The notes beneath the pieces are model-generated. The model was not told the DNA's origin, ran no database searches, and saw only the letters and a list, made by a program, of their open reading frames with translations. From positions 1 through 10,643 of the forward strand of contig JAUWYT010000028.1 in assembly GCA_030615705.1 (NCBI GenBank): a stretch of DNA of 10,643 nt, given 5' to 3'. Within the stretch, counting starts at the first letter, position 1. Every line of letters begins with the position of its first letter. This stretch comes from Chloroflexota bacterium. Its GTDB lineage: Bacteria > Chloroflexota > Anaerolineae > VGOG01. Of the stretch, positions 849 to 9,801 are shown in pieces. Both the position numbers and the translations under genes were made by a program.

Positions 849-889
849 CAAGGCGGGCGCTCGCTGTGACGCTATGCCGCTAAGACGCT
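836..889 (-). other. 15-bp inverted repeat / hairpin overlapping the truB stop
   Basis: Arms 836-850 (AGCGTCTCAGCGGCA) and 875-889 (TGCCGCTAAGACGCT) are complementary at 14 of 15 positions. The odd pair becomes a G-U wobble in the minus-strand RNA, so the transcript can form an uninterrupted 15-bp stem around a 24-nt loop. It contains two bases of the truB stop codon and lies between truB and ribF. No U-tract follows, so it looks more like an RNA-processing or stability element, or a mobile palindrome, than a terminator. Confidence 0.75.
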
Positions 890-1850
890 AGGACGCTGCA
901 AATACCTTCTGGGGTTGCCAGAGCCCCGTCTGGGGGTCACGTCTTAGGATGGCGATTAACTCCCCTTTTTGGGAATAGGCACGGCGGAGGCCAGAGGTGT
1001 CGGGACCTTGAACCTGTTGGCCGTGGCGGATGCGCGTCTCCGTCTGGGCATCAACTACCATGAGTTCGAAATCCAGCAGAGCTTCGTCGAGAGGGTGTAT
1101 GAACTTCTGCCAATTCACCTGCTTGTACTGAGCCCCGCCGAAGTAAGCGAAGGCCTCTGCCAATTCATCCAGGCTCACCGCCTTTTCCAGGGTGAAATGG
1201 CCGCTGGCCAAGCGAGTCAAGCTTTGCAGATGGGCCCCGCAGCCCAGCTTTTGGCCCAGGTCGCGAGCCAGGGCGCGGATGTAGGTGCCTGGCGAACATT
1301 CCACCCGAATGGTGAGCAACTTGTACTGAGCCTGTCGAAGTAGCGGCGGCGACCACTTGTACTGAGCTTTGGCGAAGTAATCGAGCAACTCGATGTTATG
1401 AATCTCAACCGAGCGAGGCTCTCGCTCCACGGTAATGCCCTGCCGAGCCAGCCTGTACAGGGGTATTCCCTTATGTTTCAAGGCTGAATACATGGGCGGT
1501 ACCTGCTGGATGGAGCCGATGAAGGAAGCCAGGGCTTCTCGCACTTCCTTCTCGCGGACATCAACCTCTGTTGTGGCGGTCACCTCGCCCTCGGCATCGT
1601 GGGTGTCAGTGCTCACCCCCAGGCGAATCTGGGCCCGATAGACCTTGTCCGAGGCCATAAGATACTCGGCCACTCGGGTGGCCTGACCCAGGCAGACAAC
1701 CAGCACCCCTGTGGCCAAGGGGTCGAGGGTACCGGCGTGACCGACCCTTTTCGTGCCCGACAAATGCCGCACGTGGGCGACCACATCGTGGGAGGTCATC
1801 CCCGCAGGCTTATCAATGTTGAGGATGCCGGAAATCTGCTGCCTTCTCAA
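888..1850 (-). CDS. truB: tRNA pseudouridine(55) synthase TruB with three repeat-derived insertions
   Basis: Converts U55 to pseudouridine in the T-loop of most tRNAs. The start is TTG at 1850: the next Met (residue 18) already lies inside the conserved N-terminal block GILNIDKPAGMTSHDVV, and a GAGGAGAGGA purine run precedes the TTG. GHAGTLDPLATG (37-48) holds the catalytic D43. QVPPMYSALKHKG, CSPGTYIRALARDLG and CGAHLQSLTRLASG follow in normal order, and the C-terminal PUA-like region spans about 255-320. At 320 residues it is slightly long. The extra length is three 8-residue blocks, at 158-165 (YFAKAQYK), 170-177 (LRQAQYK-type) and 236-243 (YFGGAQYK). Each is a 24-nt copy of a palindromic repeat. 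Removing the first two restores ELLDWSPPLLTIRVEC, a normal TruB strand. The catalytic core is intact, so the enzyme is probably active. Confidence 0.96.
   Translation of the reverse strand: MRRQQISGILNIDKPAGMTSHDVVAHVRHLSGTKRVGHAGTLDPLATGVLVVCLGQATRVAEYLMASDKVYRAQIRLGVSTDTHDAEGEVTATTEVDVREKEVREALASFIGSIQQVPPMYSALKHKGIPLYRLARQGITVEREPRSVEIHNIELLDYFAKAQYKWSPPLLRQAQYKLLTIRVECSPGTYIRALARDLGQKLGCGAHLQSLTRLASGHFTLEKAVSLDELAEAFAYFGGAQYKQVNWQKFIHPLDEALLDFELMVVDAQTETRIRHGQQVQGPDTSGLRRAYSQKGELIAILRRDPQTGLWQPQKVFAAS
1122..1145. repeat. Palindromic repeat copy inside truB (copy 1)
   Basis: A 24-nt unit that reads CTTGTACTGAGC then CCCGCCGAAGTA on the plus strand. On the coding strand it encodes YFGGAQYK, in frame, residues 236-243. 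It is one base longer in the centre than the intergenic form, which makes the unit exactly eight codons. Confidence 0.85.
1320..1343. repeat. Palindromic repeat copy inside truB (copy 2)
   Basis: A 24-nt unit containing CTTCGACAGGCTCAG on the coding strand, the closest of the truB copies to the presumed consensus. It encodes LLRQAQYK (residues 170-177) in frame. It lies only 12 nt from copy 3. Confidence 0.88.
1356..1379. repeat. Palindromic repeat copy inside truB (copy 3)
   Basis: A 24-nt unit encoding YFAKAQYK (residues 158-165) in frame. Coding-strand TACTTCGCCAAAGCTCAG followed by TACAAG is the same element as the other copies, with a diverged centre. Confidence 0.85.
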
Positions 1851-1877: not shown

Positions 1878-1906
1878 TCAGTAGATCACAATTTGTGATC
1901 TACTGA
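1878..1906. repeat. Perfect 29-bp palindrome covering the nrnA stop codon
   Basis: Two perfect 14-nt arms, TCAGTAGATCACAA and TTGTGATCTACTGA, around a single T. The palindrome supplies the last codon (CAG) and the stop (TAG, 1900-1902) of nrnA and fills over half of the nrnA-truB gap. In RNA it would fold into a hairpin of about 12-13 bp with an A/U loop. There is no trailing U-run. Confidence 0.85.
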
Positions 1907-2880
1907 ACTTGGTCTTTTATGGCTTCCTTGACCGCCGACAGCACTTTCTCCTGCGTCTCGTTCAGGTCGCCATGCAGCGTGCAGCCAGCAGCCTGGGGAT
2001 GGCCACCGCCGCCCAGGTCCAGGGCGACAGCAGATATATCAACACCGGGCACGGCCCGCATGTTCACCTCGATCCGGCCGTCGTCTTTCTCGACGAACAC
2101 GATGGCCACATCGGCCTCGTCGGTGGTGCCCAAGAAGTTGACCAGGCCGGCATCGCCCTTCGGCAGGCTCAGGACATCGCCGTTCTCGGAGAAGGCGCAC
2201 TCCTGGCGCATGGCCCGGGTGATCTGGCTCCAGATGATCCTCCCATCCAACTGGACGCCGTTCAGGGCCTTGGCCCACAGGCATATGGCCGAGAAGGGGC
2301 GCCGGTTGAAGATATGATCGGTGATCTCCGGAAGCTGTGCTCCCGCCCCCATCAGTTTTAGGGCCGCCCGCATAGTCCGAGGGGTCGTATTGGGGGTGCG
2401 AAAACCGCGTGTATCGGTGACAATTCCGTTGAGGAGGCAGAGGGCTATGTCGGAGTCGAGGGGGACGTGCAGGCTCTCAAGCAGGTCCAGCACCATCTCG
2501 GCCGTGGATGCCGCCCCCGTATCAGCCCAATTGACAGTGCCAAAGTGCGTGTTGGTCACGTGGTGGTCAATGTTGATGATGGGAAGGCCAGCCAAGGACT
2601 CGTCGTAGGCCGCCCCCAGCCGTTCCAAGTCGCCACAGTCGAGGCTGATGACCAGGTCATATTCGCCCTTTGGCCTGGTCACTATCGCCTCGCTGCCGGG
2701 CAGGTAGGTAAACCCCTTGGGCACTGGGTCGGCGCAGGCCAGAGTGTACTCCTCGCCCAGCCAGCGCAAGGCCCAGCCCAGGCCCAGAAGGGAGCCGATG
2801 GCGTCCCCATCAGGTGCCACATGGGTGATGACCATCACTCTCCGAGCGTCGCGGATGAATCGTTCGATGGCCCCCTTCAC
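1900..2880 (-). CDS. nrnA: DHH/DHHA1 phosphoesterase, NrnA-type oligoribonuclease / pAp phosphatase
   Basis: This family degrades 2-5 nt RNAs and dephosphorylates 3'-phosphoadenosine 5'-phosphate using Mn2+. The start is GTG at 2880, preceded by AAGGAGG six nt upstream; that Shine-Dalgarno overlaps the rbfA stop, which suggests translational coupling. The 326-residue product shows the DHH metal motifs in order: HVAPDGDAIGS (20-30), SLDCGD (79-84), NIDHHVTN (103-110) and VTDTRGF (154-160). The C-terminal DHHA1 substrate-binding motif is GGGGHPQAAG (290-299). Residues 235-242 (DVLSLPKG) are a 24-nt palindromic-repeat insertion; without it the local sequence is the family-like ENGDAGLVNFL. nrnA often sits between rbfA and truB, as here. 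The family is certain; which substrate dominates is not visible. Confidence 0.94.
   Translation of the reverse strand: MKGAIERFIRDARRVMVITHVAPDGDAIGSLLGLGWALRWLGEEYTLACADPVPKGFTYLPGSEAIVTRPKGEYDLVISLDCGDLERLGAAYDESLAGLPIINIDHHVTNTHFGTVNWADTGAASTAEMVLDLLESLHVPLDSDIALCLLNGIVTDTRGFRTPNTTPRTMRAALKLMGAGAQLPEITDHIFNRRPFSAICLWAKALNGVQLDGRIIWSQITRAMRQECAFSENGDVLSLPKGDAGLVNFLGTTDEADVAIVFVEKDDGRIEVNMRAVPGVDISAVALDLGGGGHPQAAGCTLHGDLNETQEKVLSAVKEAIKDQVQ
2155..2178. repeat. Palindromic repeat copy inside nrnA
   Basis: The core CCTTCGGCAGGCTCAGG (2157-2173) is in reverse orientation to the truB copies relative to its gene. On the coding strand it is flanked by GGCGATG on both sides, a 7-bp direct repeat that resembles a target-site duplication. 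Insert plus one GGCGATG equals 24 nt, so the reading frame is kept. Confidence 0.85.
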
Positions 2881-5853: not shown

Positions 5854-7827
5854 TTAGTAGTCCTGCCACTCCTCACGGCGACGGCCGGGCTTGCGGCGTC
5901 GCCTGGCTACTACCTTCCCTAGTTTCTCGTCGTAGACCAACTGGCGTTTCTTCTCTTTCTTTCGGCGTTCCTCTAATTCGTCTTCCTCCTCGTACTCGTG
6001 TACTTCCTCTTCTTCCTCATACTCTGCGATGGGCTCCATCTCCTCGACTGGCACCTCTTCCTCGACAGGCACGGCTTCGACTGCCTCTTCGGTTACCTCT
6101 TCTACCTCCGGAGCAGCCGGTTCGATCTCCTCTTCCTTGATCGCTTCCACCGGCTCTTCACTAACTGCCTCGATCTCTACTTCCTCCTCAACGGGGACGA
6201 AGCCTTTAGCCTGCAGCTTCTCTTCTAACTCAGCCAGCGATTTCAGGCCGAACTTATTGATGGCCAACATCTTTTCATCGCCTTTGGCTAGCCTCTCCAA
6301 TATCTCCCCTACCTTGGCAATTCCCGCTTGATTGAGGGAGTTGTACACCCGGGTGCTGAGGCCCAACACCTCGATGGGCACCTCACCCTCGACGGGGACG
6401 AAGCCTTTAGCCTGCAGCCTCTCTTTTAATTCAGCCAGCGATTTCGGGCCGAAGTTCTTTATGGCCAACATCTCTTCATCGCCTTCAGCTAGCTTCCTTA
6501 ATACCTCCTCTGCCCTGGTAATTCCCGCTTGATAGAGGCAGTTGTACACCCGGGTGCTGAGGCCCAACACCTTGATTGGGAGACCTTCTTTGGCTCTCTC
6601 TTTCGCAGTAGCTGTTTCTATCACATCAATCGCCTCTTTAAGCACCTGCAGCTCTGCGGCCGTGGGGGGAGCCTCCTCTTTTCTCATCAGAATAGCCTCG
6701 GCTAAGGCCAGGATGTCTTTCTTCTCGACTACAGCAGCTACTTGGGCGATCTCTTCTTCTTTGGCTTTTTGCAGTGCCTCTTTGGCAGCTTCCGTGGCGC
6801 TCTTGATGTCAATGCGCCAGCCGGTCAGCTTGGCCGCCAGGCGGGCATTTTGTCCCCCTTTGCCGATAGCCAGGGAGAGCTGGTAGTCGGGCACGAGAAC
6901 GGTGGCCGTCTTGCCCTTAGTGGGGTCATCGTTCAGATAGACGTTCATGACTTTTGCTGGACTCAGGGCGTTGGCGATGAAAACGCTTGTGTCAGGGTTC
7001 CATTCAACTACGTCAATCTTCTCGCCGCCCAGTTCTTTGACGACGCTTTGAATCCTGACACCGCGCATACCCACACATGCCCCCACCGGATCTATCCCCG
7101 CTTGAACAGCGTTTACAGCCACCTTTGACCGCGACCCCGCCTCGCGGGCAATGGCCTTGATCTCGACCGTGCCATTGAAGATCTCGGGCACTTCCAGCTC
7201 GAGCAGGCGGCGAAGCATATTGCGATGAGTGCGGGAGACGACGATCTGAGGGCCACGGTTTGTCTTGTGCACCTCAAGGACGTAGACCCGCACCCGCTGG
7301 TGGAGCCGGTAGTACTCACCGGGAATCTGTTGACTCCTAGGAAGGAGGGCCTCAGTTCGGCCCAGGTTTAGGGTTACACCTTGAGGCATAATGTTCTGTA
7401 CAGTACCGTTGATGAGCTCTCCCTCGCGCTCGACATAGCTGCTAAAGAGGGCATCGCGCTCAGCCTCGCGGATGCGCTGCAAGATGACCTGTTTGGCTGT
7501 CTGGGCAGCGATGCGCCCGAAGTGCTCGGGGGTGTTCTCGATCATCACTAACTCACCTAACTCGGCATCCTCGTTGACCCTCTTGGCCTTGGCCAAAGAA
7601 ATCTCAAAGCGCTCATCCTGGACTTCCTCTACCACCTCTTTGGCAGTGTAGAGCCTAGCCTGTCCGGTCTCCGGATCTATCTTGGCCGTGACATTCTGAG
7701 ATGAGCCGAAGTCTTTCTTGTAGGCCGTCAATAGGGCGACCTCAAGGGCTTCCAGGACTACCTCTCTGTCCAGGCTTCTCTCGCTGCAGATTTGGTTAAA
7801 GGCAACTGCAAAATCGCTCTTTTTCAA
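5854..7827 (-). CDS. nusA: Transcription factor NusA with tandem alpha-CTD-like domains
   Basis: NusA binds RNA polymerase and nascent RNA and governs pausing, termination and antitermination. The start is TTG at 7827 after a GGGGGAA ribosome-binding run. Domains: N-terminal polymerase-binding domain (1-130), S1 (137-202), KH1 (about 230-300, with GACVGMRGVRIQ) and KH2 (about 310-345, with IGKGGQNARLAAKLTGW). A linker follows, then two 67-residue repeats at 417-483 and 484-550. Each has the RNA polymerase alpha-CTD pattern LGLSTRVYN...AGI...FGxKSLAEL. Residues 550-620 are highly acidic (EEEEE runs), then a basic end (RRKKEKK, ARRRRKPGRRR). At 657 residues it is well above the roughly 350-500 of most NusA proteins. 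rimP, usually just upstream, is absent. The core assignment is certain; the role of the added domains is inferred. Confidence 0.96.
   Translation of the reverse strand: MKKSDFAVAFNQICSERSLDREVVLEALEVALLTAYKKDFGSSQNVTAKIDPETGQARLYTAKEVVEEVQDERFEISLAKAKRVNEDAELGELVMIENTPEHFGRIAAQTAKQVILQRIREAERDALFSSYVEREGELINGTVQNIMPQGVTLNLGRTEALLPRSQQIPGEYYRLHQRVRVYVLEVHKTNRGPQIVVSRTHRNMLRRLLELEVPEIFNGTVEIKAIAREAGSRSKVAVNAVQAGIDPVGACVGMRGVRIQSVVKELGGEKIDVVEWNPDTSVFIANALSPAKVMNVYLNDDPTKGKTATVLVPDYQLSLAIGKGGQNARLAAKLTGWRIDIKSATEAAKEALQKAKEEEIAQVAAVVEKKDILALAEAILMRKEEAPPTAAELQVLKEAIDVIETATAKERAKEGLPIKVLGLSTRVYNCLYQAGITRAEEVLRKLAEGDEEMLAIKNFGPKSLAELKERLQAKGFVPVEGEVPIEVLGLSTRVYNSLNQAGIAKVGEILERLAKGDEKMLAINKFGLKSLAELEEKLQAKGFVPVEEEVEIEAVSEEPVEAIKEEEIEPAAPEVEEVTEEAVEAVPVEEEVPVEEMEPIAEYEEEEEVHEYEEEDELEERRKKEKKRQLVYDEKLGKVVARRRRKPGRRREEWQDY
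6178..6579 (-). repeat. 201-bp tandem duplication in nusA encoding two alpha-CTD-like HhH domains
   Basis: The units are 6379-6579 (residues 417-483) and 6178-6378 (484-550), exact period 201 bp. Long stretches are identical at the DNA level, for example around the two copies of GACGAAGCCTTTAGCCTGCAG-like sequence and of TTGTACACCCGGGTGCTGAG. This implies a fairly recent or homogenised duplication. The frame is kept because 201 = 67 codons. Confidence 0.92.
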
Positions 7828-9634: not shown

Positions 9635-9662
9635 TTTGCTGCGCTCGCAACTGCTCAACTCG

Positions 9663-9691
9663 ATAGTTAAAGACAGATCATCTCTTGGCAA
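9663..9691 (-). promoter_or_regulatory. Possible promoter upstream of proS
   Basis: TTGCCA (-35-like, 5 of 6) and AACTAT (-10-like, 3 of 6) are 17 nt apart, about 45 nt before the proS ATG and downstream of the two palindromic repeats. The weak -10 makes this tentative. Confidence 0.25.
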
Positions 9692-9701
9692 AATCACCTG
9701 A

Positions 9702-9726
9702 GTACCCTGAGCTCGTCGAAGGGTAC
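9702..9726. repeat. Intergenic palindromic repeat copy A
   Basis: Arms GTACCCT and AGGGTAC (7 bp, perfect) enclose GAGCTCGTCGA. On the minus strand the core is CTTCGACGAGCTCAG, the same family as the copies inside truB and nrnA. It lies in the proS upstream gap, 15 nt from copy B and in opposite orientation. Confidence 0.85.
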
Positions 9727-9741
9727 GCCGTTGCAGGCCCC

Positions 9742-9766
9742 GCATCCTTCGACAGGCTCAGGATGC
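9742..9766. repeat. Intergenic palindromic repeat copy B
   Basis: Arms GCATCCT and AGGATGC (7 bp, perfect) enclose TCGACAGGCTC. The core matches copy A, while the outer arm differs in sequence but stays fully complementary. Confidence 0.87.
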
Positions 9767-9801
9767 TTGTCATAACATCCGACGTGAGTAGTCACCTGCT
9801 C

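Follow-up and report, generated by a model that had tools for sequence, protein, structure and literature searches.

truB in the window carries three in-frame copies of a 24-nt repeat

The window, meaning the whole stretch of DNA analysed here, is an entire 10.6-kb contig (C50) of the Chloroflexota MAG G000, which comprises 1.90 Mb in 322 contigs with a completeness of 79.6%. On its minus strand lies truB (888..1850), the gene for tRNA pseudouridine-55 synthase, identified by alignments and by Pfam matches to TruB_N (6.4e-56) and TruB_C_2 (5.5e-15). The gene hosts three plus-strand copies of one repeat, each 24 nt long: site 1 at 1356..1379 (residues 158-165, YFAKAQYK), site 2 at 1320..1343 (residues 170-177, LLRQAQYK) and site 3 at 1122..1145 (residues 236-243, YFGGAQYK). 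A first-pass annotation, made from the sequence alone, had described them as in-frame palindromic insertions of eight codons each, and its coordinates, peptides and frame were all borne out. As it also claimed, deleting the copies keeps the frame and restores the family sequence of the canonical TruB strands (ELLDWSPPLLTIRVEC / LAEAFAQVNWQKF). The term palindromic is fair, but the palindrome is weak: arms of 4 bp (TACT/AGTA) are followed by a GA/GA double mismatch and then 1-2 bp.

On the plus strand, CTTGTACTGAGC....CGAAGTA is common to all three copies. The site 3 copy is of type B (CTTGTA-CTGAGC..CGAAG-TA), and the site 2 copy is a 23-nt type-B unit with one base added. The core, from CTGAGC to CGAAG, measures 16 nt in two copies and 15 nt in the middle one, where one extra base follows, so that all three add 24 nt.

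A fourth in-gene copy, absent from the first-pass annotation, was found in a DHH/DHHA1 phosphoesterase gene (1900..2880, minus strand; Pfam DHH 1.5e-16, DHHA1 3.4e-11). It lies at 2155..2178 on the minus strand, with approximate ends, and is of type A (GATGTC-CTGAGCCTGCCGAAG-GGC, read within NGDVLSLPKGDAG), with one mismatch to the core. Among 19 distant homologs, several show an 8-residue gap in this region, the position of which varies. The same element also occurs between genes nearby, as previously noted, here as an inverted pair with longer arms (7 bp) recovered by pattern search: one copy at 9702..9726 on the plus strand (GTACCCT..AGGGTAC) and one in the opposite orientation at 9742..9766 on the minus strand (GCATCCT..AGGATGC).

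Both intergenic copies sit within a repeated unit of ~150 bp (9647-9795) with near-matching inverted ends (GTGACTACTCAC / TTGAGCAGTTGC). This unit recurs in a ribosomal-protein region of contig C31, flanked by ORFs that we take to be rplB and rpsC, where it holds two copies (one with a mismatch), and is partly present on contig C45 too. It resembles a MITE-like carrier.

The insertion sites are empty or variably filled in TruB homologs

The inserts correspond to gaps in all 27 other TruBs aligned. The records of 25 bear the label Chloroflexota or that of a group within it, and those of the other 2 say only 'bacterium'. For this alignment, 30 of 80 fetched loci were tried and L055, L061 and L064, labelled Clostridium, Dechloromonas and Oscillospiraceae, were omitted. 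In L035, from a Chloroflexota MAG whose TruB is 77% identical, gaps at the nucleotide level coincide with the three repeats; this locus is largely syntenic with the window, without the DHH gene.

We then considered a set of 121 TruB rows, composed of the window protein and the top 120 of the 7,999 homologs given by a protein search. Sites 1, 2 and 3 are filled in 9, 7 and 11 of these rows and empty in 112, 114 and 110, respectively, and all three sites are empty in 107. Among these 121 aligned protein sequences, we found no case of a repeat-free relative bearing the same residues at these positions.

The occupied sites are polymorphic among close homologs. All three inserts are present in P0001-P0004, of which P0002-P0004 are 94-97% identical to the window TruB. 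P0005 (93% identical) has sites 1 and 3 filled and site 2 empty, and it falls inside the well-supported six-row clade nearest to the window. P0006, P0014 and P0015 carry only the site 3 insert, and P0007 and P0016 only that of site 1. The chance that the inserts are an assembly artefact is practically nil: the MAG is indeed fragmented and incomplete, but the same inserts are found in proteins from other sources, all three in P0002-P0004 and two of three in P0005, which refutes this explanation.

In P0023, the site 3 insert is 16 residues long and consists of the usual eight residues with DFGELSRA inside. Given that DFGELSRA is the translation of GACTTCGGCGAGCTCAGTCGAGCC, a repeat subtype, this insert reads as a copy within a copy.

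Carriers are scattered on the TruB tree, which was built without the insert columns on 119 rows (2 short proteins of the 121 omitted). A second tree analysis and the AU test used 54 of the 121 rows. Site 1 requires at least 3 changes and site 3 at least 4 (119 rows) or 5 (54 rows), while 2 or 1 changes are needed at site 2. A single clade was rejected by the AU test for the carriers of site 1 (p 0.024) and of site 3 (p 0.0003), in a comparison whose groups were defined by the trait itself, on a tree with many weak branches. The scatter may stem from independent insertion, from precise loss or from transfer of truB stretches.

The extra residues were also mapped on an AlphaFold2 model of TruB (40 sequences; mean pLDDT 84.4), in which 20 residues fall under 50. 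Runs of at least 3 residues with pLDDT under 50 occur in two places only, 161-170 (overlapping insert 1) and 237-242 (overlapping insert 3). The surface-loop placement proposed for all three inserts thus agrees with the model for these two inserts; insert 2 (170-177) overlaps a low-pLDDT stretch at its first residue only, and the block 171-180 has a mean of 71. The prediction therefore fits flexible loops for two of the three inserts. We infer that these added residues are produced and have a neutral effect.

Copies are dispersed and patchily distributed in Chloroflexota

A genome-wide count revealed a dispersed family with copies beyond chance. The core CTGAGCNNNTCGAAG occurs 30 times exactly in the 1.9-Mb MAG G000, compared to 0 for the reversed pattern used as control, and 103 versus 12 times when up to one mismatch is allowed. 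The two other genomes of the order hold 66 and 38 exact cores (controls 1 and 0, respectively). Across 150 genomes of the class, the distribution is patchy, e.g., 246 versus 2 in G115, 152 versus 0 in G049 and 35 versus 2 in G064; at least 10 cores are found in 23 genomes, at least 1 in 95, often at chance level, and none in 55. Among 201 genomes of the phylum, one (G235) has 229 copies and another of the same genus code (G333) has 6.

With a looser pattern, 91 matches were obtained in 198 kb, compared to 2 and 2 in two controls, these regions having been picked for holding copies. Removing 6 matches with GGGACGAAG, a possible separate repeat family, gave the set of 85 copies used below, which also excludes one of the three transketolase copies (CTGAAC, off-pattern). 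Subtypes differ around the core, and the hairpin is usually preceded by CTTG, TTGT, GTGT, CCTG or GGCT.

Moreover, a second palindromic form, CTGAGCGGGACGAAG, has 11 copies on several G000 contigs (in the list allowing up to one mismatch) and is also nested in loops of the main element. At L010, L019 and L021, element copies lie in the loop of an apparently different palindromic repeat (GATTGCTTCGTCGC...GCTCCTCGCAATGAC).

Copies within genes and a frame filter in tandem arrays

Among the 85 copies, 35 fall in gene-like ORFs, as called from ORF length and GC3 criteria, 40 lie outside and 10 are unsure. In the Pfam scan of 30 copy-bearing ORFs, 8 had no match at E 0.001; matches include transketolase, RpoB, LeuRS, ValRS, anaerobic ribonucleotide reductase and phosphotransacetylase, as well as a homocysteine methyltransferase-like protein, an alpha-2-macroglobulin-like protein and a FecCD permease. 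The transketolase shows three insertions of exactly 24 nt when compared to the orthologs in G001 and G002 (87-88% identical) and to a paralog, and they are visible against PDB chains too. Other cases are less clean: the copies in RpoB, LeuRS and ValRS lie in stretches that do not align to PDB chains, and that of the FecCD permease lies upstream of the PDB-aligned part. In the ValRS gene of L017, short tandem GGCAAGT repeats directly follow the element.

Tandem arrays reveal a frame filter: the element is not in every case a multiple of three, and genes retain the copies that are. Across 52 tandem neighbour pairs, the period is 24 nt in 37, 23 in 9, 25 in 4 and 21 in 2. The first-pass annotation had suggested checking whether in-gene copies are always multiples of three; the 24-nt period is kept throughout in 9 of 9 genic arrays versus 8 of 16 non-genic ones (Fisher one-sided p=0.012), in array regions that were picked for holding arrays and with two non-genic pairs that share a unit, hence partly dependent. 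The 9 genic arrays derive from 11 genic bins, two pairs of which are halves of one array. Two further arrays are of unsure genic status, one with the 24-nt period only and one not.

Some mitochondria bypass hairpins located within genes, and the inserts could in principle be removed by splicing or ribosomal bypass instead of being translated. Nothing was found in favour of this. Removal needs no rule of three, and the retention of the 24-nt period in genic arrays only argues that the copies are translated. We give the removal of the inserts hardly any weight.

The genic copies use all five stop-free frames (10, 10, 6, 6 and 3 copies), indicating that no particular peptide is selected: the same DNA yields unrelated peptides in unrelated proteins. 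A function in TruB and other proteins could be argued from the several state changes at the same codon at truB sites 1 and 3, and from the other palindromic repeats that target truB in other bacteria, as reported in part of PMC3733652. Against this, P0005 lacks the site 2 insert within the nearest clade and 107 of the 121 rows lack all three. Selection of the peptides for function is thus very improbable.

Hairpin structure, nesting and insertion ends

The case for a hairpin rests more on complementarity at the foot of the stem than on folding energy. Of the 85 copies, 82 have complementary bases immediately flanking the core, where 41.3 would be expected, and these foot pairs covary among three types (CG 52, AT 25, GC 5), as would be predicted for an imperfect stem of the REP kind. 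DNA folding predictions give the truB copies marginal energies of 0 to -1.9 kcal/mol, and the stem is interrupted by the GA/GA double mismatch. A structured leader was rejected as an identity, no Rfam family reaching the gathering score in the window, L001 or L117.

Copies are often nested. In the sequence examined, there are 32 cases of a copy enclosed by an outer CTGAGC...CGAAG whose foot pair is complementary. The outer span measures 39 or 40 nt in 27 cases, and 36, 38, 41, 42 and 46 nt once each. Spans of 63-64 nt occur as well, and double nesting is visible in C199 and C304. Since 39 versus 40 nt depends on whether the outer core is of 15 or 16 nt, the spacing alone leaves the insert length unfixed, and the length was therefore taken from the removal of exact units. 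In the GGCTCGACTGAGCTCGCCGAAGTC subtype (up to two mismatches), excising the exact 24-nt unit regenerates a core at the joint for 6 of 13 copies (raw count). The inner copy may have either orientation. Given that the loops of copies are a tiny part of the genome, nesting points to targeting, perhaps of single-stranded hairpin loops.

Six insertions could be resolved, three each in truB and transketolase; the direct repeat at their ends is 0-1 nt long, and no target-site consensus was evident by eye.

A mobile hairpin as the likely origin of the insertions

The first-pass annotation had proposed that a mobile repeat invades genes and is tolerated as peptide. This idea agrees with the empty sites, the TruB polymorphism, the presence of copies in unrelated genes in every stop-free frame and the frame filter. 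The gain is of exactly 24 nt in truB and transketolase, and copies nest within one another. It is very likely that the three truB repeats are separate insertions of a mobile hairpin that spreads by copying itself through Chloroflexota genomes, each read as eight additional residues. Under this proposal, a short element of 23-25 nt per unit, with 24 nt measured in genes, would have entered truB three times, as it would spread elsewhere, by insertion without target-site duplication and often into the loop of an existing hairpin, its own copies included. Insertions into conserved genes would persist only where they are a multiple of three bases, free of stops and at a tolerant position, and each surviving copy would then lengthen the protein by eight residues.

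Replication slippage or template switching at hairpins could generate such repeats with no transposase, and the tandem arrays of identical units with short periods do look like slippage products. Single copies are, however, dispersed across unrelated genes and contigs, and heterotypic or reversed units nested in loops are beyond local slippage. This origin is therefore unlikely, and slippage as the sole cause is ruled out by the heterotypic and reversed nested copies.

If the mobile hairpin is retained as the preferred explanation, a sub-question is what moves it. The mover may be a single-strand transposase of the HUH/Y1 type (TnpA-REP-like) acting in trans, as circumstantial evidence suggests. 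In G000, there are four Y1_Tnp genes, three of them with ORFs of 198-244 aa (L126:84-677, L121:3930-4661 and L033:729-1391) and the HUH motif, 'RAYT-like' being a label given from length and motif. A Y1_Tnp match was found in 21 of 22 copy-rich genomes versus 14 of 22 copy-poor ones (raw counts, genomes of any size). The lack of target duplication and the imperfect stem with a double mismatch and a short 5' tail are as in the E. coli REPs described in part of PMC8266576. On the other hand, 36 Y1_Tnp loci (out of 104 matches in 44 genomes) were inspected, 26 from copy-rich genomes, and none has a copy closer than ~1.5 kb (or before the contig end). The tail usually reads CTTG, TTGT or the like rather than GTAG, and G064, copy-rich and 97% complete, has no Y1_Tnp match. 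Mobilisation by the genome's own Y1/HUH transposase (RAYT/TnpA-REP type), with the element as a REP-like non-autonomous unit, is thus a plausible but not quite even call.

L033 and L156 share one type of RAYT-like gene, with a related upstream sequence coding for PNLFGV in both genomes. It is perhaps the gene's own flanking repeat, unrelated to the 24-nt element.

We also advance, more tentatively, a broader reading. In this case, single-strand hairpins of 23-25 nt would home throughout the phylum into loops, those of their own copies included, and would nest in 24-nt steps; their gain and loss in genes would be precise and repeated at the same codons, and the core proteins of copy-rich Chloroflexota would be continually lengthened by 8 (and 16) residues. 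This wider picture is possible, though we hold it to be somewhat doubtful.

Comparison with known repeats

The copies behave as protein-coding palindromic repeats do: they are found in frame in conserved genes and are absent from orthologs, and they also occur outside genes, dispersed in the genome. The parallel with Rickettsia palindromic elements (RPEs), drawn in the first-pass annotation, is right for the class of mechanism and is drawn here as an analogy, with no claim to sequence kinship. Both are palindromic repeats in frame in protein genes, tolerated as peptide, and truB is a shared target, e.g., in R. conorii, according to the part of PMC3733652 consulted. The Chloroflexota element differs from RPEs, compared here by their description in that source only, in its 24 nt (8 residues) and its self-nesting.

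The likeness to GTAG REPs and REPtrons, as presented in parts of PMC8266576 and PMC3733652, includes a short imperfect hairpin whose stem has an internal double mismatch, a short 5' tail, high copy number, dispersion and genic location in some species. Head-to-head pairs of the BIME/REPIN kind are present but rare in our case, with 19 pairs in 7 of 19 copy-rich genomes and 0 in controls, and may be a further likeness. In contrast to GTAG REPs, the Chloroflexota element has no GTAG before its hairpin, 35 of its 75 clearly called copies are in genes, and 437 tandem-or-nested pattern matches in 13 genomes stand against the 19 inverted pairs in 19 genomes. It differs from REPtrons in that no copy flanks the 36 Y1_Tnp loci inspected. 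Membership of the GTAG REPs was rejected on the tag and on transposase linkage (0/36 Y1_Tnp loci). CGTC-tagged REPs are comparable in having intragenic units and no dedicated transposase known, as far as part of PMC3733652 describes them, but their sequence is other and the Chloroflexota stem is shorter than their 8-9 bp (Table 1 of that paper).

We also considered another class. MITEs of DDE transposases are small, non-autonomous mobile repeats, as the element would be, but it is far smaller and has no terminal inverted repeats beyond the hairpin. A DDE-type MITE was rejected, its target-site duplication of at least 2 nt contrasting with the 0-1 nt of the longest direct repeat at six sites.

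Intragenic REP-like insertions, including RPEs in Rickettsia and those of several REP-rich species, have already been described, and truB has been noted as a target in S. maltophilia, E. litoralis, S. alaskensis and R. conorii (PMC3733652, in part). RepRanger (PMC12306157, in part) lists Chloroflexota genomes, and the word 'intragenic' is absent from its main text. In the open-access literature, six 15-nt core forms were found in no paper, and six encoded peptides gave only two papers, both unrelated by title. The present element is different and smaller, and occurs at high density in a common environmental phylum and in core enzymes, with clean cases in TruB and transketolase and copies also within the ORFs of RpoB, LeuRS and ValRS. 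The recurrence of several palindromic repeats in truB is a lead that deserves a systematic count. Moreover, the mixed insertion combinations in close homologs, the reuse of codons and the nesting of exact units make this a favourable natural case for studying the movement of very short elements and the accommodation of small insertions by proteins. Automatic annotation will render this one element as unrelated peptides.

Other repeats in the window

Three other repeats were observed in the window. Within NusA, a 201-nt direct tandem duplication (6168-6569, 86% identical) corresponds to a repeated 67-residue unit. Between truB and the DHH gene, there is a perfect 14-bp inverted repeat (1878-1906; TCAGTAGATCACAA / TTGTGATCTACTGA). 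In the truB-ribF interval (815-900), short CGTCTCAGCG-like units, recognised by eye, face the inverted partner GCCGCTAAGACGCTAGGACGCTG and are probably another hairpin repeat.
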